Positions 49,477 to 60,629 of a DNA stretch of 64,000 nt are shown here, piece by piece. The notes under the pieces are model-generated. The model saw nothing but the letters and a program-made list of their open reading frames with translations, did no database searches and was not told the DNA's origin. Origin of the DNA: Roseovarius nanhaiticus (GTDB lineage: Bacteria > Pseudomonadota > Alphaproteobacteria > Rhodobacterales > Rhodobacteraceae). How positions within the stretch are numbered: position 1 is the first letter of the stretch; the number at the start of each line of letters is the position of its first letter. Both the position numbers and the translations under genes were made by a program. Location: contig NZ_FTNV01000003.1 in assembly GCF_900156535.1 (NCBI RefSeq), forward strand, positions 434,001 to 498,000, in the 5' to 3' direction.

Positions 49477-49551
49477 TCCGGCGTAGCTCAGCGGTAGAGC
49501 AGTTGACTGTTAATCAATTGGTCGTAGGTTCGATCCCTACCGCCGGAGCCA
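49477..49551 (+). tRNA. tRNA-Asn(GUU)
   Basis: A 75-base cloverleaf with CCA encoded. The acceptor TCCGGCG pairs with CGCCGGA, discriminator G. The anticodon loop is CTGTTAA with anticodon GTT at 49509-49511, and the T-loop is TTCGATC. Its 3' 45 bases are repeated at 60585-60629, so it is the integration target of the element and is kept intact by the insertion. Confidence 0.95.
49507..49551 (+). repeat. attL (45-bp direct repeat in tRNA-Asn)
   Basis: Exact 45-bp identity with 60585-60629. The match begins at the 5' base of the anticodon loop and ends with CCA. It marks the left junction of the integrative element. Confidence 0.93.
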
Positions 49552-49559
49552 TAAGTTTC

Positions 49560-49590
49560 AAGGGCTTGGCGAGCAATCGCTGAGCCCTTT
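49560..49590 (+). terminator. Hairpin terminator supplied by the element after tRNA-Asn
   Basis: A 7-bp stem AAGGGCT and AGCCCTT (49560-49566 with 49583-49589), followed by TCT. It lies 8 bp after the tRNA CCA, inside the element. A similar hairpin follows attR. Confidence 0.5.
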
Positions 49591-49826
49591 CTGCTCCTCG
49601 CACCATGGTAGGACACAAATAGGCCGCAGCGCAGCGGTTAGCTTCGGTAACTTTTGGGAGTTCGGCTTCCTGAGAGCAACAATAGTCCACAGAAATACCT
49701 GAGTGCTGTTCTGAGTTGATCCTCGTCGAGCCAATGAGACTGGATCAAGGCAATGGTGCGTTGCAAAAAGATCAGATATTAGGGGGAAGAGCAGACCGAA
49801 ACCATGAGGCGAAGTTCGTAAGTGCC

Positions 49827-52394
49827 ATGACCAACTTGGAAAAACGAATTGATGACTTCAGAAGCTCTGTCGTCTCAAGCCTCTTGTCTCCAACAGACTT
49901 TGTCGACTGGGGTGCAGTCTCGCGCGAGATGTCACAGCAAACTAGAGCTATCGCTGATCTTCAAGATTTTGTTGACCATGGGAACTTAAGCTACGAAGCG
50001 TTGGCATCACACTTGTCCGAGAAGCCAGCAACCTATCCACTTTTGCTTTCGCTTTTGGCGTTCAATGCTTCAGGTTCGCAGATTGAAAAGTGGGGACTTC
50101 CAGAAAGGGTTCCAACGGAACCTACACAGCGGCAGCGTCTAGCTAAGAACCTGACAACAATCGGTTACTCTGAACTCTTTACTGAGAATTCTCGTATCAG
50201 CGATCAGTTGAGAGTTGCCGAAATCTATAAAGACAGCTTCAAGCGCCGATTTCGTTCTGGAAATCAGTTCGAGAAAAGCGTTTCGGGGCTTGTCAAGAAA
50301 GCAGTTTCGATAGCCAACGATCATTGTGAAGAACAACTGCGCAGTGCAGGCACTAGTGTTTTACGGCACTCATCGGTGGCGAGGTTCTTAGATCACGTTA
50401 TTATGCAAGGCCAAAGGCCGATTGCGGGTATCGCCACGGTTTTTCAACAGCAGTCAGGAGGCCGCCAGCAGCGTGAACTCTCGGTAACTTATCCTACCCT
50501 ACAAAGGAATTTGCGCGAACTTGGCATGTCGCTAGTCTTAATTGCTGACGGCCCAGGTTTTCAAGATGCTTCACCAAGAGCGCTCCAAGCGCTTTTCGAA
50601 GGTGTCAGATTCCCCATGACTATCCGACAGGCAGGAGATGGCGAATTGGTCGACGCCTTGCTGGCGGCGAGTACTGAACCAGAGATTGCTCCCTTGGAGA
50701 GCGCTGCAGTCGATCGGCTAATTGATGCTGCGTTAAATGAGCGAGGAGAAGTTAATGCTTCAGATCTGCCTCTAGGGAGCAAGGAAGCTACGCTTGCGAT
50801 GGCTAAATTTGCTGAAGTGCATCGGGACCTTTCCATTCGAATGTCCTTTGACGGCACACACCTAGAGTGGGACAACCGTGAACATGTGCAGTCGGCGATC
50901 AATTTAGAGACATCGTTTGAGCCCGAATTAGCCGTTAAGCTGTTCTCGTTCCTCATGAGCGCAGACGAAATCGAAATAAAAAATTCGAACGGCGACTGTG
51001 ACGCCATAGTGGAAATTGACAAGGTTGCCCCCTTTCCACAGAAGCTCTTTGTCAAGGCAACAGGAAACGACTTTGACAACAGTTTGGCACAAGCCGCGTC
51101 AGCAAAATCGATGGAGTTCGCCCACGATGCTCGCTTTTCTGTGCTCATTCTTTCGGAGGAGTTGCGTGCACCTGACCTAGAAGAGCATAGACGGATGCAG
51201 TCGTTACGCCCAGTTAGCATAATTGTTTTATCCCCAGCGCAGCTGAAAAAAGCGAGCAAATCTTCGACGCCGCGCGCACTTTTCGTGGACGAGCTTTTGG
51301 GACAAGCAGACTTGTCCAAGGTCAGTCCGTTTGTTCTTTCTAATGCAACGCCCAGCAGAATGTTCTTCGGTCGAGAGCAAGAAGCAGCAGCTACGCTCGC
51401 CACTATTAGTACGAACAGTGTCGCGATCCTTGGAAGTCGACGGATAGGCAAAACGTCGCTACTCAGACGTTTGCGCGAAGATTTGAAGGACGCCAATTTC
51501 TCCCCATTTTTCACTGACTGCCAGACCGTTCGTACTTGGCAGGACTTCGCAAACTTGGCGCAACGCGATTGGCATGTTTCTGTTCCTGGTGAATTCTCCC
51601 CCAACCACTTGACCGACCTAGTGCAACAGCTCAGGCAGAGGTCAGAAGACCCGGTTGTTATTTTGCTGGATGAGATCGACCAGCTCCTACTTTGGGATAT
51701 GCAACACGACGAAAACTCCGTACCGGAGGCCTTCTTCCGAGCATGTCGATCAATATCGCAATCTGGGGCAGCACAGTTCGTTTTTACTGGTGAACGAGTA
51801 ATATCAAAGAAACTTTGGGACCCGCAGTCTCCCCATTGGAATTTCTGCCGCCCCATTCAATTAACTCAATTACCGCGCAAAGACGCGCTTGAACTACTGC
51901 TGATACCTCTAAGCGGTCTTGGCATTGACCTACCACAACGAAGTGAGACATCTGAACTGGTATGGCGGTTCACGAGCGGACATCCACAGCTCGTTCAGTT
52001 TCTAGGGGATCGGCTAATTCGAAATTTAGAAGTCGGGCGCCACAATACTTCATACTCCATCGATGCGGATGACGTTATGAAGGTGGCGCATTCGTTTGAT
52101 TACGCCGAGCACTACGTTTCCACCTACCTCGGGCAAGCAAACAGTTTAGAGCGCGCTATCGCTCGTAGCTTTGGGGCCGCCTCAAAGAAAAAGGCACAGC
52201 TAAGGGACGTGGCAAGAAGCGAACACGCAGATGTTCTCGAGGACGAGTTCGAGACAGCGCTGCGTATGCTTCAATTGTACGGAATTCTTGAAGTTGAAGA
52301 TAATCTTTTCAAGTTGAGAGCTGATTGGCTCCCTGAAGCGCTGACGCATTTTGGTGCATCTGAAAACGCAAGCATTTTATCGACAAGGAAATAA
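49827..52394 (+). CDS. Degenerate DpnII-like nuclease domain fused to P-loop ATPase
   Basis: An 855-aa protein from ATG 49827 (an upstream TTG at 49716 is possible; no start has a strong ribosome site). Residues 1-285 follow the DpnII/MboI endonuclease layout: DFR...FVDW start, FLDHVI (D189), then GIATV, QQQSGGRQQRE, and LIADGPGFQ. In active enzymes the GIATV position reads IETN, so the catalytic Glu is Ala (A203) here and the domain is probably inactive. A middle region (about 300-480) has a second Mrr-like alpha/beta pattern. A STAND/AAA-type ATPase follows, with FFGREQE, Walker A GSRRIGKTS (536-544), Walker B VILLDEID (D615), FTGER, and a C-terminal winged helix. It is followed 4 bp later by the second ATPase gene. 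Confidence 0.8.
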   Translation: MTNLEKRIDDFRSSVVSSLLSPTDFVDWGAVSREMSQQTRAIADLQDFVDHGNLSYEALASHLSEKPATYPLLLSLLAFNASGSQIEKWGLPERVPTEPTQRQRLAKNLTTIGYSELFTENSRISDQLRVAEIYKDSFKRRFRSGNQFEKSVSGLVKKAVSIANDHCEEQLRSAGTSVLRHSSVARFLDHVIMQGQRPIAGIATVFQQQSGGRQQRELSVTYPTLQRNLRELGMSLVLIADGPGFQDASPRALQALFEGVRFPMTIRQAGDGELVDALLAASTEPEIAPLESAAVDRLIDAALNERGEVNASDLPLGSKEATLAMAKFAEVHRDLSIRMSFDGTHLEWDNREHVQSAINLETSFEPELAVKLFSFLMSADEIEIKNSNGDCDAIVEIDKVAPFPQKLFVKATGNDFDNSLAQAASAKSMEFAHDARFSVLILSEELRAPDLEEHRRMQSLRPVSIIVLSPAQLKKASKSSTPRALFVDELLGQADLSKVSPFVLSNATPSRMFFGREQEAAATLATISTNSVAILGSRRIGKTSLLRRLREDLKDANFSPFFTDCQTVRTWQDFANLAQRDWHVSVPGEFSPNHLTDLVQQLRQRSEDPVVILLDEIDQLLLWDMQHDENSVPEAFFRACRSISQSGAAQFVFTGERVISKKLWDPQSPHWNFCRPIQLTQLPRKDALELLLIPLSGLGIDLPQRSETSELVWRFTSGHPQLVQFLGDRLIRNLEVGRHNTSYSIDADDVMKVAHSFDYAEHYVSTYLGQANSLERAIARSFGAASKKKAQLRDVARSEHADVLEDEFETALRMLQLYGILEVEDNLFKLRADWLPEALTHFGASENASILSTRK

Positions 52395-52398
52395 TTTG

Positions 52399-53889
52399 AT
52401 GGTTTTCTATCAGGGGCCTATCCCGATTGGGAACGACAGCTACATCGAGCGCGATTTAGTTAATATTCTTTGTGGTGAACTTCTAAACGAACGCTGGGTG
52501 TTGTTCCTTGGTCCGCGACAACATGGCAAAACTACGGCGTTAATTCGAGTTAAGAAGCTCATAGATGATGCCGGAATACAATGCGTCTATGTCGACTTGC
52601 AACAGCAACCACCGCTGGAGAGCTACTCTGGTTTCGTCAACTGGTTCTCAGCGAAGGTTGCAGAGCAACTTGGCGCAGAGTTCGAGCAAGATGAAAGCTT
52701 GGACGACTTACAGGTTGCACTAAATCGAGTGCTACCAGAAGGTACAAGCCGGGTCGTCGTACTTGTAGACGAAGCATCAAATATCCAAAGAGATGATTGG
52801 CGTAACTCATTCTTTGGCCAACTACGTGGTCTTTCGAGTGCAAGGGCATTCGCAGAGGACATAGACGCATCAAAGCGGCTTACATTTTTGTTCTCCGGCA
52901 CGTTTCGGCCAGAGACGCTGATCGATGCAGCCAACTCACCTTTTAATGTTTGCGAAAAGATAGAAACGGTCGATTTGACTGAAGAAGAGGTGCATCGGCT
53001 GGCTATGCTCACACTAGGGGAGGATGAGCGGTCGCGACAAATTTCTGAAAAGGTGTTTTCCGCAGTAGGAGGTCAACCCTATTTGATACAGAGGTTGCTT
53101 GGAAAAGCATCGGGGGCCGAAAATCAGCAGGCTGCGTTAGCGACGGCGATTGATGAGCTTAAGACAGGCCAAGCCGATCATATAATCAACCTGTTCTCTC
53201 GCTATTTGGCTGAGACTAATTTGACGAAATTGGTTGCAACGTTGGCAGCTAATGGAGAGCTTGATAACTCTCCAGCTGACCCAGACTACGCGTTTTTGTG
53301 CACCGGTGGCCTTGCCAAAAGAAACGGCGGCAAAATTATTTTTAGAAATGCTGTTTACGAAGAAGTCGCCAAGACAAGCCCACAGATAGGGAACAGTGAT
53401 CCAGCGGGTGAAAGAGCGCCTGTTTTTCCACTCAGACCTGAGAGTTTCAGAAAACTTATCGATGATGAGCTTAGAGAGATAGCATATAGTGCTCAACAAG
53501 GCGCCGTTGCTTCATACATGGGCAATAGCAACAGATTGGCACTGGCAGGATATGGCTGTTCAATTGAAGCCATCCTGATTGACTACCTAAAGCGCAAGTC
53601 TGAACAAGAAAGGCGCGCCGCGGGCCAACAAGCGCCGCAGTGCAACCTCAACAACTTCGAAACCTATGCAGACGCAGGCAGCCTACGTCTGGTTAACCTT
53701 GTCAAAATAGCCAATCGTCTCTTGGGCTCTAACGCCCAAGTGCCAGATGCCCTTAGGGATTGGAGAAACCTAGTTCACCCAAGCGTAGCCACACAAAACT
53801 ATATGAGAGACGAACAACTGGCGCCAGAAGTTCGAGCTGCGGCTGCTCTTCACGAGATATTTCTGCGTGATCTACCTGAGCAGCCTTAG
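52399..53889 (+). CDS. AAA-like ATPase with HEPN-like C-terminal domain
   Basis: A 496-aa protein from ATG 52399, with AAGGAA 8 bases upstream, inside the end of the previous gene's leader. It has the AAA-like (prokaryotic STAND relative) ATPase domain: FYQGPIPI..YIERDL, Walker A GPRQHGKTT (38-46), Walker B VVLVDEAS (D124, E125) and the LFSGTFRPE sensor. A winged helix lies at about 280-345. The C-terminal 130 residues look like a HEPN-type helical domain with RDWRNLVHP (R453-H460). HEPN domains are often RNases in defence systems; activity here is an inference. It forms an operon with the upstream pseudo-nuclease ATPase. Confidence 0.78.
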   Translation: MVFYQGPIPIGNDSYIERDLVNILCGELLNERWVLFLGPRQHGKTTALIRVKKLIDDAGIQCVYVDLQQQPPLESYSGFVNWFSAKVAEQLGAEFEQDESLDDLQVALNRVLPEGTSRVVVLVDEASNIQRDDWRNSFFGQLRGLSSARAFAEDIDASKRLTFLFSGTFRPETLIDAANSPFNVCEKIETVDLTEEEVHRLAMLTLGEDERSRQISEKVFSAVGGQPYLIQRLLGKASGAENQQAALATAIDELKTGQADHIINLFSRYLAETNLTKLVATLAANGELDNSPADPDYAFLCTGGLAKRNGGKIIFRNAVYEEVAKTSPQIGNSDPAGERAPVFPLRPESFRKLIDDELREIAYSAQQGAVASYMGNSNRLALAGYGCSIEAILIDYLKRKSEQERRAAGQQAPQCNLNNFETYADAGSLRLVNLVKIANRLLGSNAQVPDALRDWRNLVHPSVATQNYMRDEQLAPEVRAAAALHEIFLRDLPEQP

Positions 53890-53943
53890 GATCGGATTGA
53901 ATTTCCGGTGTAAGACTGCTGTGATAGTATTGGATTTAGTATA

Positions 53944-55194
53944 CTAAGGCTCAGATAAGGTTAACTTGGGAGACGTTTTCCTTTGCCTCTCTTTTTGCCT
54001 TTTCGTTCCCGGGTGGTCTTTGTGTTCACCGACCATATACATGTACTTTCCAGGCACTTTATCGACGGGCTCCGGCTCTGGAACTGGCAACCGCTTCGGC
54101 GGGAGAAGTCTCAGCGAGCCTTCCGGGGCATCGTCCAATATCTGCGACCGGATGGAACGAGCCAAAACTTCGGCAACAAGCGACGGTACTGCATTCCCCA
54201 GCATTTTTTGCACATCGGTTCGGCCGCAATCAAACACCAAACCATCTGGAAAGGTTTGAATTCGGCACATCTCTTGTGTGGTCAGTTTGCGATTATTCCA
54301 GTGGAATGGACCAACTGCGGAACCCGGCTGCGCTTGTATGGTCCATGATGGCTGGTCTTTGGCAAGTTTCAACAGGAAACTCCAGTATCGAGTTCGCCAA
54401 CCAAACAAGTTTTGACCGCCTCGGCGATTTGTATGCCAAAGGTAGTTGTGACCCTCAGGGATCGACGGTAGTAGATCACCCCATTTTCCCCCTACCGCAA
54501 TTGAAGTTTCATTAGAATTCTTAGGAAGGTCTCCGATTGCATCCCAAGCCGTACGGAATGGCTCTCGATCATCCAAAGGCGCGATTTCGTCTACTGAAGC
54601 ATGCGTTTCCGCAGGAAATTGAAAATCACGCCCGTCCCGGCTTGCGATAAGAAAAACGCGCTCCCGAGCTTGTGGAACGCCGTATCGAGCGGAATTCACC
54701 ATTTTCCAGTGAACTTTGTAGTTAGTTCCAGCTTTTGTGTTAATCGCATCAATGCCAGACAACAGATGCTTCAATCCTTCGTCTTTGTCACGATAAACGA
54801 GCCCATACACATTCTCTAAGAGAAACGCTTTGGGCTTTGTATCGCGAAGCACACGCAAAAACGCATCCAGCGTAGACGCCCGAGGGTCGTCCAGCCGCCG
54901 AGTATCACCGTTAAACCAATATGACGACTTCGAGAACGGCTGGCAGGGTGGCCCGCCGATCAGTACATCGGCTTCTTCGGGAAGTAGCTGTGCCGCTGTG
55001 AGTATCTGTTCCGAAGAGAAGTTGTGTATGTCGCCTTCCAGAACAGGCCACTCAGGCCGATTGAGACGCATTGTGCGGCAGGCGACCTTATCGATTTCGC
55101 AAGCGACGCGCGTAACAAACCCTGCAGCTTCAAAGCCGAAATCAAGACCCCCGACACCTGTGTAAAGGCTTATGACTTTAAGTTCCTTAGACAC
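53944..55194 (-). CDS. DNA (cytosine-5) methyltransferase of a SacI-like system
   Basis: A 416-aa m5C methyltransferase. It has the SAM motif I LYTGVGGLDFGFE, motif IV GGPPCQPFSK with catalytic C84, motif VI LLENVYG, motif VIII ARYGVPQARERVF, and motif IX/X with MLGNAVPSLVAE. A charged C-terminal tail follows. It is divergent from the SacI-type endonuclease gene 109 bp away, so the pair is a type II R-M system; the target GAGCTC is inferred from the endonuclease family. Confidence 0.92.
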   Translation of the reverse strand: MSKELKVISLYTGVGGLDFGFEAAGFVTRVACEIDKVACRTMRLNRPEWPVLEGDIHNFSSEQILTAAQLLPEEADVLIGGPPCQPFSKSSYWFNGDTRRLDDPRASTLDAFLRVLRDTKPKAFLLENVYGLVYRDKDEGLKHLLSGIDAINTKAGTNYKVHWKMVNSARYGVPQARERVFLIASRDGRDFQFPAETHASVDEIAPLDDREPFRTAWDAIGDLPKNSNETSIAVGGKWGDLLPSIPEGHNYLWHTNRRGGQNLFGWRTRYWSFLLKLAKDQPSWTIQAQPGSAVGPFHWNNRKLTTQEMCRIQTFPDGLVFDCGRTDVQKMLGNAVPSLVAEVLARSIRSQILDDAPEGSLRLLPPKRLPVPEPEPVDKVPGKYMYMVGEHKDHPGTKRQKERQRKTSPKLTLSEP

Positions 55195-55303
55195 GTGCGG
55201 ACCCCAACTTCTTGTAGCGACTTGACCCTCGAAACACTACCTGTTCTGTACTAGGTTGACAATGACCCGACACTCGAACCACAAAAAGCCTTAGGAAAAA
55301 GCA

Positions 55304-56386
55304 TTGAAGATTGACAAAGTAGCAGCGAAGGAGCTGGTGCGGCACCAAGCGGAGCGCGATGATGTACCATCTGCATGGATAGGTAAGGTTCGAGAGTTGT
55401 CGCGGTTGTGCGAAGAAGGGGTGTCCAAGACCCACTTGGCTTTTTTGGCGACCGCCATGCTTGCCAAAGCCTGCGACAGACGCGCAGACCTATTCGCTAT
55501 TAAGCCGCAGCACGCCAAGAACGCAGAAGGAGCTTTTTCGGCTCGGGTTCTGTGTCATAGCGTCTTAGTCCCCCTATCCGCCGAGCTTGGGTTTAGCTTA
55601 GGTGTGACTGGGCGAGAACCTCTGAACAATCAGCCTTACTTTCGGATGACGCGGCTGGACGATGGTACACCGGTCCATCCGGGTGGTCGGGCGGCATTCG
55701 AGTACATGCTGGACCTAGTAAGAGAACTAGAGCAAGGCGACGAGGAAAATGCTGCTGACGCGTTAGCGGCCTTTGTCGCAGTTCGCAGAGAATTCCAGCC
55801 AAACTACGCCGACCATAGCTCTTCGATTACGGTTGTGCCTTGGAAACTGGCAGAACTGGCGGAAGGTTTCGTCAGCGAAGCTTCCGAGAACGGACGTAGA
55901 GCGCAAGCCGTTGCGGCGGGCCTAATGGATACTGTCTACGGCGCGGATAGGGTTGAGAGCGGGCGTGTGAATGACCCTAGTCGTCGGCATCCCGGAGATG
56001 TGTGCGTAGTTAACGCTGAAAGAACTGGCTGGGAAAAAGCTATAGAGGTGCGCGACAAACCGGTGGCAGCTTCAGATGTTCAAATATTTGGGAAGAAGTG
56101 CTTGGACTTAGGGGTAAGAGACGCCGCGCTTCTGATGGTTTCAGAAAAGCAAACTATTTTGGATAGCGTGGCTCTGCAGCGCTGGGCACAAAACTTTGGA
56201 CTGGGCTTGACGCTGTTTGTGGGTTGGCAAAGTTTTGTGGAGCAAGTGCTCTACTGGAGCCCCCTAACAAAACCGGACGTTGCCAAATTGGCAATAGGAA
56301 CAATCCACAAACGGCTGGTCGAGGTTGAGGTTGCGGAGACGTCTGTCGTTCGCTGGCAAGAAATAACTGCGAAGGCAAATACTTGA
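55304..56386 (+). CDS. SacI-family type II restriction endonuclease
   Basis: A 360-aa RE_SacI-type enzyme. It starts at TTG 55304 with AGGAAAA just upstream. Family features are SKTHLAFLATAMLAKA, SARVLCHSVLVPLSAEL, VTGREPLNNQPYFR and the nuclease site HPGDVCVV (D232) with IEVRDKP (E248, R250, K252). All catalytic positions look intact. SacI cuts GAGCTC. Its neighbour is an m5C methyltransferase, which fits. Leaderless-type weak start may keep endonuclease expression low relative to the methyltransferase. Confidence 0.88.
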   Translation: MKIDKVAAKELVRHQAERDDVPSAWIGKVRELSRLCEEGVSKTHLAFLATAMLAKACDRRADLFAIKPQHAKNAEGAFSARVLCHSVLVPLSAELGFSLGVTGREPLNNQPYFRMTRLDDGTPVHPGGRAAFEYMLDLVRELEQGDEENAADALAAFVAVRREFQPNYADHSSSITVVPWKLAELAEGFVSEASENGRRAQAVAAGLMDTVYGADRVESGRVNDPSRRHPGDVCVVNAERTGWEKAIEVRDKPVAASDVQIFGKKCLDLGVRDAALLMVSEKQTILDSVALQRWAQNFGLGLTLFVGWQSFVEQVLYWSPLTKPDVAKLAIGTIHKRLVEVEVAETSVVRWQEITAKANT

Positions 56387-56398
56387 CGCTAAATGAAG

Positions 56399-57742
56399 CT
56401 AGCGATACCGCCGAAGGCTGGCCAAAGCGTCGCGGTATTCATCAGTGACAACGTAAATACGGCTTCTGGGGCGAAGCGTCCTAAGAACACCCAAGTCACG
56501 CAGCGCATGAACGACAGAAAGCAGTCTTGGATTTCCGTAGGGCACAACCTTTCCAAAAGCTACCAGCGCGGCAATGATCGCCTCGGCAGTATGCGCATTG
56601 TCGGCTGTCCGTGTGATTTGGTACATCAGCTCCACAGCCGTAAAACTGCCCGGTGGCGGCGGGTCCGCTACAATCGATTGCAGTATGGGCTTCAAACGTC
56701 TGACCGCCACTTCGGCCAACGGTGCAATCATGGACACGACACCTTCAATGCTGTCGCGTCGTCTGCCGCCCACAACTGCATTATGGATAGCTGAATCTTT
56801 CAATGTTACCTCGAAACGGACGCGGCGGGTTGTTTTTGCGTAAATCTTGATGCTGATGTTCTGGGTCAGCTTAAGCTTGATGCAAGGACTTTGGCGCTGT
56901 ATTTCGAGCGAAGGTGCGGCTGTATCGTACCAATCCTCAGCCATGGTTATGGCCTGCTCGGAGAGTATTTCTCTAAGCTGTAGAACCCAGTCAATTGGCG
57001 CGTTGCTATCGAACTCCCAGTAGAATTCGATTTCCCGAATTGAGAAGTACGGCAGAAGCACCGCCCTTGCTTTGCTGTGCTGAAATGCAGTCTGAACAGA
57101 TTCCGATAGAACGCTTTGCGCCAATGTCAGGTATTCACGAAGCTGGCTTCCACGGGGAGATGCAAGAGCGAACGCATATTTCTTGTTCGGCCCTATTATG
57201 AGATTGGTTGCAGGCCGGAGAGGAATTTCGTTTTCGTACCAGTTTTCGTCCGGAGAAATTGCCAAGACGTACTCAGAAACCAACTTTGGGCGATCCAGCC
57301 GGGTGATGCGTTTTAACGCCTGAGCCTGAACGAAGCGCGTATGGTTGAGTGTGGCTTCAAACGCGAGGCGGCCCACTTCGCCATCTTGGGGGCTGGTCAG
57401 GCGGGATTGCCATAAGACTTCGGCTGCTTTGCCCGAAATTAGAGGCTTGCTTGCACCCAAGCTATCCCGGTTGGGATTGGAGCGGAACTTTAGGTGACGG
57501 ACGTCCCGAATTCGTTCAACCAACTGGTTATTGAAAAGCGGCAAGCATTCGCCATCTACCGAAGTTACCTCCGCTTCACGCAACCCCGACAAAGCCTCAC
57601 AGATATGATCCCTTTCCCCGAATAATGCCCAGTCGCCCACATCTATGCGGATACGGTCAATAAACGCATTTTCAGCATTGATTTGCGTAGACGGTGACAG
57701 TTGCCGTACAAAACTGTCTCTTCTGACTATTAGGTTTGACAT
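56399..57742 (-). CDS. Unknown 447-aa protein, possibly replication-initiator-like
   Basis: I do not recognise a named family. A central segment SIKIYAKTTRRVRFEVTL resembles the KxYxKT..lRfE strand seen in some plasmid or phage Rep proteins. The C-terminus (about 375-447) looks like a winged helix (GNPRLLSVVHALRDLGVL). No catalytic motif can be pinned down. It overlaps the serine recombinase gene by 13 bp on the same strand, so the two are probably cotranscribed. A Rep-like role would fit a mobile element but is unproven. Confidence 0.6.
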   Translation of the reverse strand: MSNLIVRRDSFVRQLSPSTQINAENAFIDRIRIDVGDWALFGERDHICEALSGLREAEVTSVDGECLPLFNNQLVERIRDVRHLKFRSNPNRDSLGASKPLISGKAAEVLWQSRLTSPQDGEVGRLAFEATLNHTRFVQAQALKRITRLDRPKLVSEYVLAISPDENWYENEIPLRPATNLIIGPNKKYAFALASPRGSQLREYLTLAQSVLSESVQTAFQHSKARAVLLPYFSIREIEFYWEFDSNAPIDWVLQLREILSEQAITMAEDWYDTAAPSLEIQRQSPCIKLKLTQNISIKIYAKTTRRVRFEVTLKDSAIHNAVVGGRRRDSIEGVVSMIAPLAEVAVRRLKPILQSIVADPPPPGSFTAVELMYQITRTADNAHTAEAIIAALVAFGKVVPYGNPRLLSVVHALRDLGVLRTLRPRSRIYVVTDEYRDALASLRRYR

Positions 57743-58425
57743 GGGGGGTTAGGAATATTCCCGATGGTAGTATGGTTACGGTCTGCATACCTTTTCCACA
57801 CTCGCTGGACTGTAGATGGATGCCACTGTCCGGCCGTATAGGATGGTACTTTGTCGAAATTTAGCCGATCTGCGATTTTTCTGACCGAAAGGCCATTCGC
57901 TTTGTGCTGCTTTATCACTGGCCCCAGCTTGTCGCTGTAAGCGTCGGCATCTGCGATTTTCAGATCGGCAAGCGCTTGGCATGATTTGCCAAGTTTTACT
58001 CCCCTAGCTTTTGCTGCCGCCAGAGCGGCTTTGGTTCGCTCCGAGATTGCCCTACCTTCATGCTCAGCCACTGCAGCCATAATGTGAAGTACAAATCGGT
58101 TCGCCTCGGGCATGTCCACCGCGCGGAAAGGAACACCGCTCTCAATAAGGCCAGAGATGAAGTGTACGTTGCGGGCAAGTCGGTCGAGCTTGGCGATGAT
58201 GAGGGTTGCCCCCTCCTGCTTGCATTCTTCAAGAGCATATAGGAGCTGTTTCCGCGAGTTGCGCTTACCGCTTTCTACCTCCACGTACTCATTGATAAGT
58301 TGACCGCCGGATTGGGTGACGAAGCGGTCCACTACCGTTTTTTGTGCTTCCAGTCCAAGACCGCTCTTTCCTTGGCGGTCAGTCGAGACCCGAATATAGG
58401 AGATATATTTTTCCGCGAAATCCAT
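57730..58425 (-). CDS. Serine recombinase (resolvase/invertase family)
   Basis: A 231-aa small serine recombinase. The N-terminal catalytic domain has YIRVSTDRQ with nucleophile S14, GLEAQ, LIIAKLDRLARN and the E-helix region AVAEHEGRAISERTKAALAAAKARG. The C-terminal HTH (GLSVRKIADRLN, then WHPSTVQRVWKRY) binds DNA. It is in addition to the tyrosine integrase, so it may resolve dimers, invert a segment or act at a different site. Confidence 0.9.
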   Translation of the reverse strand: MDFAEKYISYIRVSTDRQGKSGLGLEAQKTVVDRFVTQSGGQLINEYVEVESGKRNSRKQLLYALEECKQEGATLIIAKLDRLARNVHFISGLIESGVPFRAVDMPEANRFVLHIMAAVAEHEGRAISERTKAALAAAKARGVKLGKSCQALADLKIADADAYSDKLGPVIKQHKANGLSVRKIADRLNFDKVPSYTAGQWHPSTVQRVWKRYADRNHTTIGNIPNPPCQT

Positions 58426-58835
58426 TATGTGCTCCTGTAAACGTTGGTTCGTTCAGGTACACCTGGTCACCTCGATTGCCTTTGCGTAGGGTTTACGCCG
58501 CTTTTTTCGACGATGAGGGCGATTGTGTCTTGGCAACACGCTTATGTGAGGTATCGCACCGAAAACATTAGGCTTTTTGCTGCAATCGATTGCATTGAGG
58601 GTATCGCTACACGTACGAGCAACCGTTTTGTACTATTTTGTAATAATTTTCAGTAGGTTGCTTTGTAATTCGTTATGTCTATTTTCCTATAGGCCCTACA
58701 GCACCGAACACTGGCTTCCATTCGAATTTCCCTGTAAGTTTGTTATGTCCCTTCCCATTTACTGTCCGCAATTTTTTGGCCTGCAGAGAGTAGGGGGGGG
58801 GGGTCGTAGTGTCGATTTTTGAAAGTTTGGGTGCC
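58426..58835. other. AT-rich noncoding region with an 11-base G run
   Basis: This 410-bp stretch holds no convincing gene. It carries G11 at 58793-58803 and a G/T-rich stretch near 58620-58680, and should contain the serine recombinase promoter (minus strand) and the 3' end of the xis-like transcript. Confidence 0.5.
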
Positions 58836-59183
58836 CTATTCTGGTTTGTCGCGCGTGTAGTCCTGTTGCGAATATCCACTCTTATTGTACTCATCTAGCA
58901 ACGCGATCTGGTACTTCACGCCACTACCTCTTCCAAAAGAAACAGGACCTTGACCCTTGCTGCGTAGGTTGCGCAAGGTTTGCTTGGTCTTGTTCACATA
59001 TCTTGCTGCGTATGTGATGTCGCACCATTTGCCGTCCTCTGACACCCAGCCGCCGCTTTTCTGTTCTTCTAACTCTTTGACCCGTCGTTCGAGGCTCCTG
59101 ATTTTTAGGCGGAGCCTTACGGTTTCCGGCGTTTTAATGCCTTTCTTAAGTTTCCGCTTCGACCTGTTTTGATCGTCGGGCAT
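58836..59183 (-). CDS. Excisionase-like HTH protein
   Basis: A 115-aa protein. It has a basic N-terminal part, a short coiled coil (VRLRLKIRSLERRVKELEEQ), then a MerR/excisionase-type HTH (DITYAARYVNKTKQTLRNLRSKGQGP) and a wing (FGRGSGVKYQIALLDEY). The start lies within the 3' end of the integrase gene (67-bp overlap), and both read leftward. Xis function is inferred from fold and position. Confidence 0.75.
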   Translation of the reverse strand: MPDDQNRSKRKLKKGIKTPETVRLRLKIRSLERRVKELEEQKSGGWVSEDGKWCDITYAARYVNKTKQTLRNLRSKGQGPVSFGRGSGVKYQIALLDEYNKSGYSQQDYTRDKPE

Positions 59184-60454
59184 GCTCGCTTATTCCCCTC
59201 TGGCTGGTCCTGCTGATAGCTGGTCGAGCTACGGCGGTTAGTTTCAATGGACGTGATGGCATTTTCAAGGTCGCCGCGTACAGCCGTTTCAAAGGGGTGT
59301 GCATATCGCCGTGTCGTGATCGGACTTGTGTGCCGCAAAATAGCTTGCGCGGAGTGGAGGCCGCCAGTCCGTGCCACATACGTCCCGACTGTGTGACGAA
59401 TATCTTTTAGGCAGGCGTTGGGAAGCCCCGCTAAATCACAGGTGCGCTTCCAAGGTTTTGTGAGCGTTTTCAATCGTTCTTCTGGGTTGACGCCTGGGAA
59501 TACCCAGCCTTGTCGATGGTCGCTAGATGCAATTGATTGCAAGAAATTCACCGCAGCATTTGCCAATAGCAACCTTCCCTCACCAGTTTTGGTACTATGC
59601 AGAGTGGCGACGCCCGACCCCAAGTCGATGTCCTCCCAGCGGAGGCGCAAAACCTCTGACGGTCTACACCCCGTGAAGAACAAAAGAGTAATCGCTTCAA
59701 AGGCGACTTTGCTCCTAGGCATTTGCTTTTGTGCCGCTTCTATTGCACGAAAAATACGGGCCTGTTCGGTGTCTGAAAAATAGTGCTGCTTGGGTCGTTC
59801 CTTATTCATCTTAACCCGCGATGCTGGGTTGCTGCCGCGCGGTATCACATCCCAGTCTTCGGCCTTAAAGAGCATTGCCTTTACAACGCTGAGCATGCGG
59901 TTTGCGCGGATCGGTGCGCTCGACATTGACGCATGTAAGGATTCGATGTCCAAGCGCGTCAACTCGACCAAAGGAAGTTTCCCAATTTTCGGCACCACTC
60001 GACTCTCCAGTACTCGCTCATATTCTTTGAAGGTGGATGGAGCCAATGTTCTCTTTGCTTGGTCGCGCAGATAGATCGCCGCGAACTCCGCGACGGTCAT
60101 CGCGTTTCTTTGGTTGATCCTGTCACTTGCTGGATCAGCACCATTGCTTACTTCAACCGCAAGTTCCTTCGCCTTCCGGCGGGCTGTTGATACTGAGATT
60201 TCACCCAGCTTACCGACTGTAAGCTTTCGCTGCCGACCGAATAACGTGCGGTACCTGTAAACAAATACCTTACGGCCAGCGGGGGTGACCTTGAGCAAGA
60301 GACCTACGGTTTTCGGATCGTTCACGGTGTAATCTGAGGGTCCCGGCTCAGCATTTCTTAAACCCACTTCTGTGAAGGCCACATGCTTCGGTGGGGCAGG
60401 TCGGCTTTCAAGCCGCGGTCGGGGTCTTGGTTTTTTAGGGCGCATATAGGGCAC
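59117..60454 (-). CDS. int: Tyrosine site-specific integrase
   Basis: A 445-aa P4-type integrase. The N-terminal arm-binding domain has FTEVGLRNA and GLLLKVTPAGRKVF, then a core-binding domain (about 115-200). Catalytic residues are R264 (GCRPSEVLRLRWED), K289 (STKTGEGR), R353 (DIRHT), H375 (ILRHTS) and the nucleophile Y384 (RRYAH). The usual His three residues before the second Arg is Lys (K350). It begins 131 bp from attR, the normal place for an integrase that recombines at a tRNA 3' end. Confidence 0.93.
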   Translation of the reverse strand: MPYMRPKKPRPRPRLESRPAPPKHVAFTEVGLRNAEPGPSDYTVNDPKTVGLLLKVTPAGRKVFVYRYRTLFGRQRKLTVGKLGEISVSTARRKAKELAVEVSNGADPASDRINQRNAMTVAEFAAIYLRDQAKRTLAPSTFKEYERVLESRVVPKIGKLPLVELTRLDIESLHASMSSAPIRANRMLSVVKAMLFKAEDWDVIPRGSNPASRVKMNKERPKQHYFSDTEQARIFRAIEAAQKQMPRSKVAFEAITLLFFTGCRPSEVLRLRWEDIDLGSGVATLHSTKTGEGRLLLANAAVNFLQSIASSDHRQGWVFPGVNPEERLKTLTKPWKRTCDLAGLPNACLKDIRHTVGTYVARTGGLHSAQAILRHTSPITTRRYAHPFETAVRGDLENAITSIETNRRSSTSYQQDQPEGNKRACPTIKTGRSGNLRKALKRRKP

Positions 60455-60584
60455 AAAGCTCCGGGAGTTATCCGTATGCTTTGAGTGTATTCTCCAAGTC
60501 GATCTTTGAAAATATCAAATAAAATTAGTAACTTATGTGGCTTTGTGATGGTATAGTATAAATTGGTATAATCGGAAAAAACGG

Positions 60585-60629
60585 CTGTTAATCAATTGGT
60601 CGTAGGTTCGATCCCTACCGCCGGAGCCA
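60585..60629 (+). repeat. attR (45-bp direct repeat)
   Basis: Exact copy of the 3' 45 bases of tRNA-Asn. It lacks the 5' half of a tRNA and is therefore the remnant junction, not a second tRNA gene. Confidence 0.93.

Follow-up and report, generated by a model that had tools for sequence, protein, structure and literature searches.

What is the function of two adjacent ATPase genes, the first of which carries the remains of a restriction enzyme and the second a tail resembling a HEPN domain? The genes lie in a 64,000-nucleotide stretch of the Roseovarius nanhaiticus genome (contig NZ_FTNV01000003.1, positions 434,001 to 498,000; hereafter, the window). Both are on the forward strand, start with ATG and encode the proteins P1 (49827..52394, 855 amino acids, aa) and P2 (52399..53889, 496 aa). 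Only 4 base pairs (bp) separate the stop codon of P1 from the ATG of P2, and the start of P1 at 49827 is backed by the alignment with orthologues; the same outer coordinates, common direction and gap were given in the initial annotation of the locus. Scanning for promoters and terminators yielded a signal no better than chance. P1 consists of a dead DpnII-like domain, a winged helix-turn-helix-like region, a dead restriction endonuclease (REase) fold, a STAND/AAA_22 ATPase and a winged helix, in this order, and P2 combines an AAA_35 ATPase with a HEPN/DUF4145-like tail. The pair probably forms an anti-virus defence system that is as yet uncharacterised. More specifically, and with slightly better than even confidence, we regard it as a self-contained, horizontally spreading two-gene conflict module dependent on nucleoside triphosphates, in which P1 would be the sensor and switch and P2 would provide a HEPN-like output.

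The N-terminal domain of P1 (residues 9-270; 49851..50636) matches the DpnII family, PF04556, above its curated cut-off of 23 bits (6.6e-11, 42.5 bits). The same holds for the orthologue from Sphingomonas kyeonggiensis (6.1e-10, 39.3 bits), while the one from Mitsuaria sp. PDC51 falls under the cut-off (0.0017, 18.2 bits) but in register. Comparison of P1 and its orthologues with genuine DpnII enzymes by hhalign (four proteins of the family, one of them a fragment) gave a score of 36.9, whereas none of 60 column-shuffled controls exceeded 23.0. Both results, along with the ATPase profiles described below, agree with the fusion of a DpnII-like domain to a STAND ATPase proposed initially.

The active site of this domain has been dismantled. 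Genuine DpnII enzymes follow the pattern RR-x-D-F/Y-V-[IV]...F-E-V-N-F-Y-N-G-G-G-S-K, while the P1 family has ...G-x-A-T-V-F-Q-[NQ]-Q-S-G-G-R-Q at the same site. In particular, A203 of P1 aligns with the Glu of the active-site motif E-x-N, and the replacement of this catalytic Glu by Ala, already noticed in the initial annotation, is common to all three family members, as is the replacement of the Asn by Val; the Lys of GGGSK is replaced as well. The active-site Asp (D189), described initially as remaining, is indeed present in P1, but both orthologues have Thr or Ser in this position, so that D189, not being conserved, is rejected as a functional remnant. The 'ADGPG' segment listed together with it has been kept, with D241, G242 and G244 invariant, and is present in real DpnII too. 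The absence of the Glu and Asn from all three members and the retention of the Asp in P1 only make catalysis at the DpnII site very unlikely; judging by the alignment, it was lost before the three lineages split. Still, contrary to what a decayed site would lead one to expect, no part of the domain is better conserved than the former active-site loop ATVFQNQSGGRQQR: residues 202-216 are its best conserved 15-mer, with 0.80 of positions invariant versus 0.35 for the whole domain. Such conservation of the loop (residues 201-216, GIATVFQQQSGGRQQR, 50427..50474, with Glu changed to A203) points to its retention for a binding or structural role.

A second degenerate restriction-nuclease fold, similar to FokI, BspD6I and EcoT38I, occupies the middle of P1 (residues 350-497; 50874..51317). 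The AlphaFold2 (AF2) model of P1 is confident only at approximately residues 290-490 (predicted local distance difference test score ~80-90), where a winged-helix-like piece is followed by a helix, three strands, a helix, a strand, a helix and a strand. Among the structural matches that span residues 350-497 as a domain, the top ranks all go to enzymes that restrict or nick DNA: FokI (2fok, Z 9.3, root-mean-square deviation 3.2, 138 residues aligned), N.BspD6I (8.8, 3.4 and 141, respectively) and EcoT38I (8.7, 3.3 and 123). The Z scores are moderate, but these are three separate enzymes that coincide in one stretch. As modelled, this region has the core fold of PD-(D/E)XK restriction nucleases; of the catalytic D and (D/E)xK, no conserved acid or Lys is seen in strands 381-412 of the three orthologues. 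The single dead nuclease domain of the initial annotation stands for the DpnII-like part, while this second non-catalytic fold had been missed. It is the least conserved domain of P1 (0.13 invariant), a pattern that a recognition surface evolving fast would show. A role as nucleotide sensors in prokaryotic immunity has been suggested for inactive REase domains that accompany NTPases (PMC12839542), and P1 may be their parallel, by analogy.

The most conserved domain of P1 (0.54 invariant) is the STAND-type ATPase (residues 504-735; 51336..52031). Its Walker A motif (GSRRIGKTS, 536-544) and the LDEID of the Walker B region (LLDEID, 613-618) are nearly invariant among the three P1 proteins, and the AAA_22 and ATPase_2 profiles both score over the cut-off, in line with the STAND ATPase assigned to the first protein initially. 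Its matches are STAND/NLR and ORC-type proteins, including Sso1545, PABY2304 and Avs4; the domain is STAND/NLR-like. Its relatives by sequence (23-31% identity) are also ATPases, mostly within proteins of approximately 1,900-2,900 aa from the window's own family, Euzebya and Anaerolineae. The protein ends with a winged-helix region (residues 761-851; 52107..52379).

The AAA_35 domain of P2 (residues 5-321; 52411..53361) is found over the cut-off in all three P2 proteins (3.5e-21 in the window, 1.7e-21 and 7.5e-20 in the others), and its Walker A motif (GPRQHGKT, 38-45) is intact, as are the Walker motifs of P1. The tail (residues 345-496; 53431..53886) contains R453-D-W-R-N-L-V-H460. The motif RDWRNLVHP is kept as R[DE]WRN[LI][VI]HP in the three orthologues, R453, R456, N457 and H460 being invariant, and agrees with the HEPN pattern R-x4-6-H with a polar residue after R (R453-D/E...H460, spacing 6). 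Whole-P2 structural matches are ordinary AAA+/NLR proteins that do not cover the tail, for which AF2 predicts an all-helical structure with low confidence.

DUF4145 is a family of the HEPN superfamily in which R-x4-6-H is mostly conserved (PMC3710099). Compared with it directly, the P2 tail yields an hhalign P of 0.026, and the relationship emerges through intermediate sequences. A motif scan of viral contigs identified five proteins with R[DE][FYW]RN[LI][IV]HP and a matching domain, which share R and H through this very selection. With the motif masked, the P2 tail scores 57.5 against the profile of these five proteins (shuffled maximum 21.3), and since the match survives masking, their relation is not an artefact of the motif scan. 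One of the five matches DUF4145 (PF13643) in Pfam, at 8.9e-4 and under the cut-off; the joint profile scores 35.0 against DUF4145 by hhalign (shuffled maximum 14.1), with R453 and H460 falling on or beside its R and H. The HEPN-like relationship of the tail appears reasonably supported through these intermediates, that is, beyond the motif itself, as claimed initially for a HEPN-like tail on an AAA-like ATPase; by this relationship, P2 may be an RNase. An unnamed DUF4145-like tail (VLAGS..EA.L ... R[DE][FYW]RNLIHP) was observed in viral contigs L098, L100, L101, L102 and L104, fused to varied N-termini, including tetratricopeptide repeats.

The two full-length P1 orthologues came to light when 84,980 species genomes were scanned with one degenerate Walker A pattern, a search that is far from exhaustive, so that more members may exist. 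They were found via a Walker-A-centred alignment; the Walker A rows added in alignments A2-A4 were partly hand-made bait and are no evidence. In both genomes the next gene after the P1 orthologue encodes the P2 orthologue, in the same order and with a short spacer, and identity to the window pair is 43-45% for both genes. The Sphingomonas pair immediately follows hsdM-hsdS-hsdR, and the Mitsuaria pair lies behind tRNA-Ala, with no adjoining restriction-modification (R-M) gene seen. Conservation of the pair in other genomes, named initially as a check, is thus confirmed in Mitsuaria and Sphingomonas, with R-M adjoining in the latter. The three settings are unrelated, but each time the pair resides in low-GC DNA, forming a local trough in Mitsuaria (0.57-0.59 versus ~0.70 around) and in Sphingomonas (0.54-0.56 versus ~0.64).

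A search of 84 genomes of the genus with full-length P1 found no orthologue in the 83 besides the window's own, nor any further one in the samples of the class (385 genomes) and the family (395 genomes). As the positive control, the 44%-identity Sphingomonas orthologue was recovered at 5e-236; the absence is therefore meaningful in those samples, and the pair is rare, not undetectable. Its absence from the rest of the genus indicates that it was probably gained horizontally. Searches of phages and plasmids found no full-length P1-type protein, and when viral and genome contigs were scanned with patterns from a single protein, nothing matched. The phylum search with P1 residues 1-500 returned only weak matches (best other E 0.007); the two examined (L018 and L019) are antisense to or within housekeeping genes.

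In the window, the pair belongs to a precisely bounded 11-kb integrative island (49507-60629). Its ends are exact 45-bp direct repeats, an attL-like one (49507..49551, forward strand) inside tRNA-Asn (49477-49551) and an attR-like second copy (60585..60629, forward strand), and GC content is ~0.50 inside versus ~0.62-0.64 outside. Downstream of P2 the island encodes a C5-cytosine methyltransferase (53944..55194, reverse strand) and a SacI-like REase (55304..56386, forward strand), together a SacI-type R-M system, followed by three reverse-strand genes for a 447-aa protein (56399..57742), a serine resolvase (57730..58425) and the tyrosine integrase of the island (59117..60454). These data bear out the tRNA-integrated island beside an R-M system reported initially. 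The 447-aa protein has no family match, and its gene overlaps that of the resolvase by 13 bp.

In the mechanism that we propose, P1 would act as a receptor or sensor and as a switch. Its DpnII-derived domain would have lost nuclease catalysis and kept the former catalytic loop as a surface contacting a ligand or DNA, while the fast-evolving second dead restriction-nuclease domain would add another recognition surface or a scaffold. Binding would cause an ATP-driven conformational or oligomeric change of the STAND ATPase, and the output would be handed over to P2, with its own ATPase and a DUF4145-class HEPN-like tail retaining the R..H pair. This tail would most probably act as an RNase, stopping the growth of the infected cell. 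The sequences show the domain composition, the loss of nuclease residues, the intact Walker motifs, the invariant R/H pair, the joint inheritance of the genes and their mobility; the ligand, the direction of signalling, RNA cleavage, growth arrest and protection from phages are inferred. The full scheme, in which two former restriction enzymes would do the recognising, without cutting, for a STAND receptor that switches on a separate ATPase-HEPN RNase, is put forward tentatively, being a possibility that we hold at less than even.

Several observations weigh against this reading. Only three members of the family are known, and all statements about conservation rest on three sequences. The DpnII-like domain, the ATPases and the P2 tail are poorly modelled by AF2, and their folds therefore rest on sequence profiles; this applies to both folds named initially, DpnII, with its direct profile matches, and HEPN, reached by profiles through intermediates only. 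The P2 tail has neither a direct HEPN match in Pfam nor a meaningful sequence match in PDB, and its R-to-H spacing of 6 is the limiting value for HEPN domains. Moreover, a dead DpnII domain reading GATC could not separate a phage from a host with unmethylated GATC sites; GATC sensing by P1 is doubtful, and we do not claim it. Finally, the company of the island does not by itself prove defence.

Among the other explanations, the best surviving one, which we still consider unlikely, retains defence and reverses or shares the roles: the P2 tail would be a non-catalytic HEPN domain for binding or dimerisation, and the toxic effect would be ATPase-driven, exerted on DNA or on a partner, e.g. the neighbouring REase. 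Approximately 20% of DUF4145 members lack the motif (PMC3710099), P1 exceeds P2 in size and has several folds of the nucleic-acid type, and the pair stands beside R-M genes both in Sphingomonas and in the window. However, R453, R456, N457 and H460 are invariant in P2 orthologues, the five viral relatives carry the same R/R/N/H residues (albeit selected by motif), and the Mitsuaria pair shows that an R-M partner is not required. The latter also makes it improbable that the pair is an accessory or regulator that controls or boosts neighbouring restriction, e.g. by limiting self-damage; it adjoins a SacI-type R-M system here and a type I system in Sphingomonas, but these are unrelated. Slightly less probable is an active DpnII-like endonuclease with a relocated active site, which has in its favour that conservation within the domain peaks at the former catalytic loop, but has against it the loss of the Glu, Asn and Lys and the non-conserved Asp. 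The least probable role is in maintenance or target selection of a mobile element (a TnsC-like ATPase with a TnsA-like nuclease fold), suggested by a very weak TniB match in P2 (0.16) and by TnsC among the structural matches of P1 (Z 7.8, not distinctive). Against it, a transposase is missing, an integrase and exact att repeats belong to the island itself, catalytic residues are absent from the nuclease folds, and neither in Mitsuaria nor in Sphingomonas does a recombinase gene lie next to the pair.

If the proposed sensor-switch and output roles are correct, restriction enzymes would have been turned into receptors, losing the cutting chemistry, keeping the recognition surface and acquiring an NLR-like switch and an RNase-type output. 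Restriction recognition would serve signalling and suicide where it once served cutting, and innate restriction and abortive-infection signalling would be linked in one compact portable pair. A structural question raised by this is the ligand of the conserved loop ATVFQNQSGGRQQR.

The initial annotation knew no named system with this composition, and this holds for all resources searched. No PADLOC-DB v2 or NCBIfam model recognises P1 or P2, with only weak local similarity in the ATPases; their domain combination has no Pfam, PADLOC or NCBIfam model, and no such system was found in the searchable literature, with subscription papers and large protein databases outside the scope. DS-8, a weak NCBIfam match, was rejected, being a metallophosphatase-NACHT system whose likeness is confined to the ATPase, and sequence searches of PDB were uninformative. 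As for Druantia III (DruE and DruH), the scanned island proteins include no helicase or DruH.

In bacteria of the window's family, Druantia-III-like operons consist of a DruE helicase and a giant STAND ATPase, and one of them adds a 345-aa protein. At 23-28% identity, these giant proteins rank with the closer relatives of the P1 ATPase, but a DpnII-like domain and an AAA_35/HEPN partner were not detected there, and the helicase is extra, P1/P2 having none. Two such loci (L046, 5284-18001, and L045, 6199-17309) contain a DruE-type helicase gene followed by that of a 1,889-2,107-aa STAND ATPase; in L046, DruE3 scores 1773 bits, the STAND protein has no PADLOC match, and the 345-aa protein is further encoded. 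Giant ATPases of this kind, together with a partner of 342-345 aa, are also encoded in L047 and L048; this is a possible unlisted Druantia-III-like variant. In a Sphingobium plasmid (L014, 4415-8574), the gene of an ATPase with an alpha/beta-hydrolase-like N-terminus, as judged by eye, overlaps that of an AAA_35-like protein whose C-terminal part is long; this two-ATPase pairing may follow the same plan as P1/P2.

Compared with DpnII/MboI enzymes (PF04556), P1 matches nearly the whole profile in residues 9-270, but the active-site D, E, N and K are not conserved in its family, no adenine methylase is adjacent, and the domain is fused to a STAND ATPase. As in Avs/NLR-kind STAND NTPases (Avs4, Sso1545-type), its Walker A and B motifs are intact and followed by helical and winged-helix parts, while two dead restriction-nuclease folds stand in place of their repeats and active effector. 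As regards DUF4145-type HEPN proteins, the P2 tail shares two conserved helical segments and R..H with relatives that match PF13643, but has no direct Pfam match and is fused to an AAA_35 ATPase. Combinations of the DUF4145 HEPN domain with the N-terminal region of DpnII/MboI in presumed defence proteins were noted in 2013 (PMC3710099); these have the same two ingredients as P1/P2, but only the helical N-terminal region, in a single polypeptide and without the two ATPases. The ingredients of the pair are all known, and we place it among the STAND/HEPN conflict systems.

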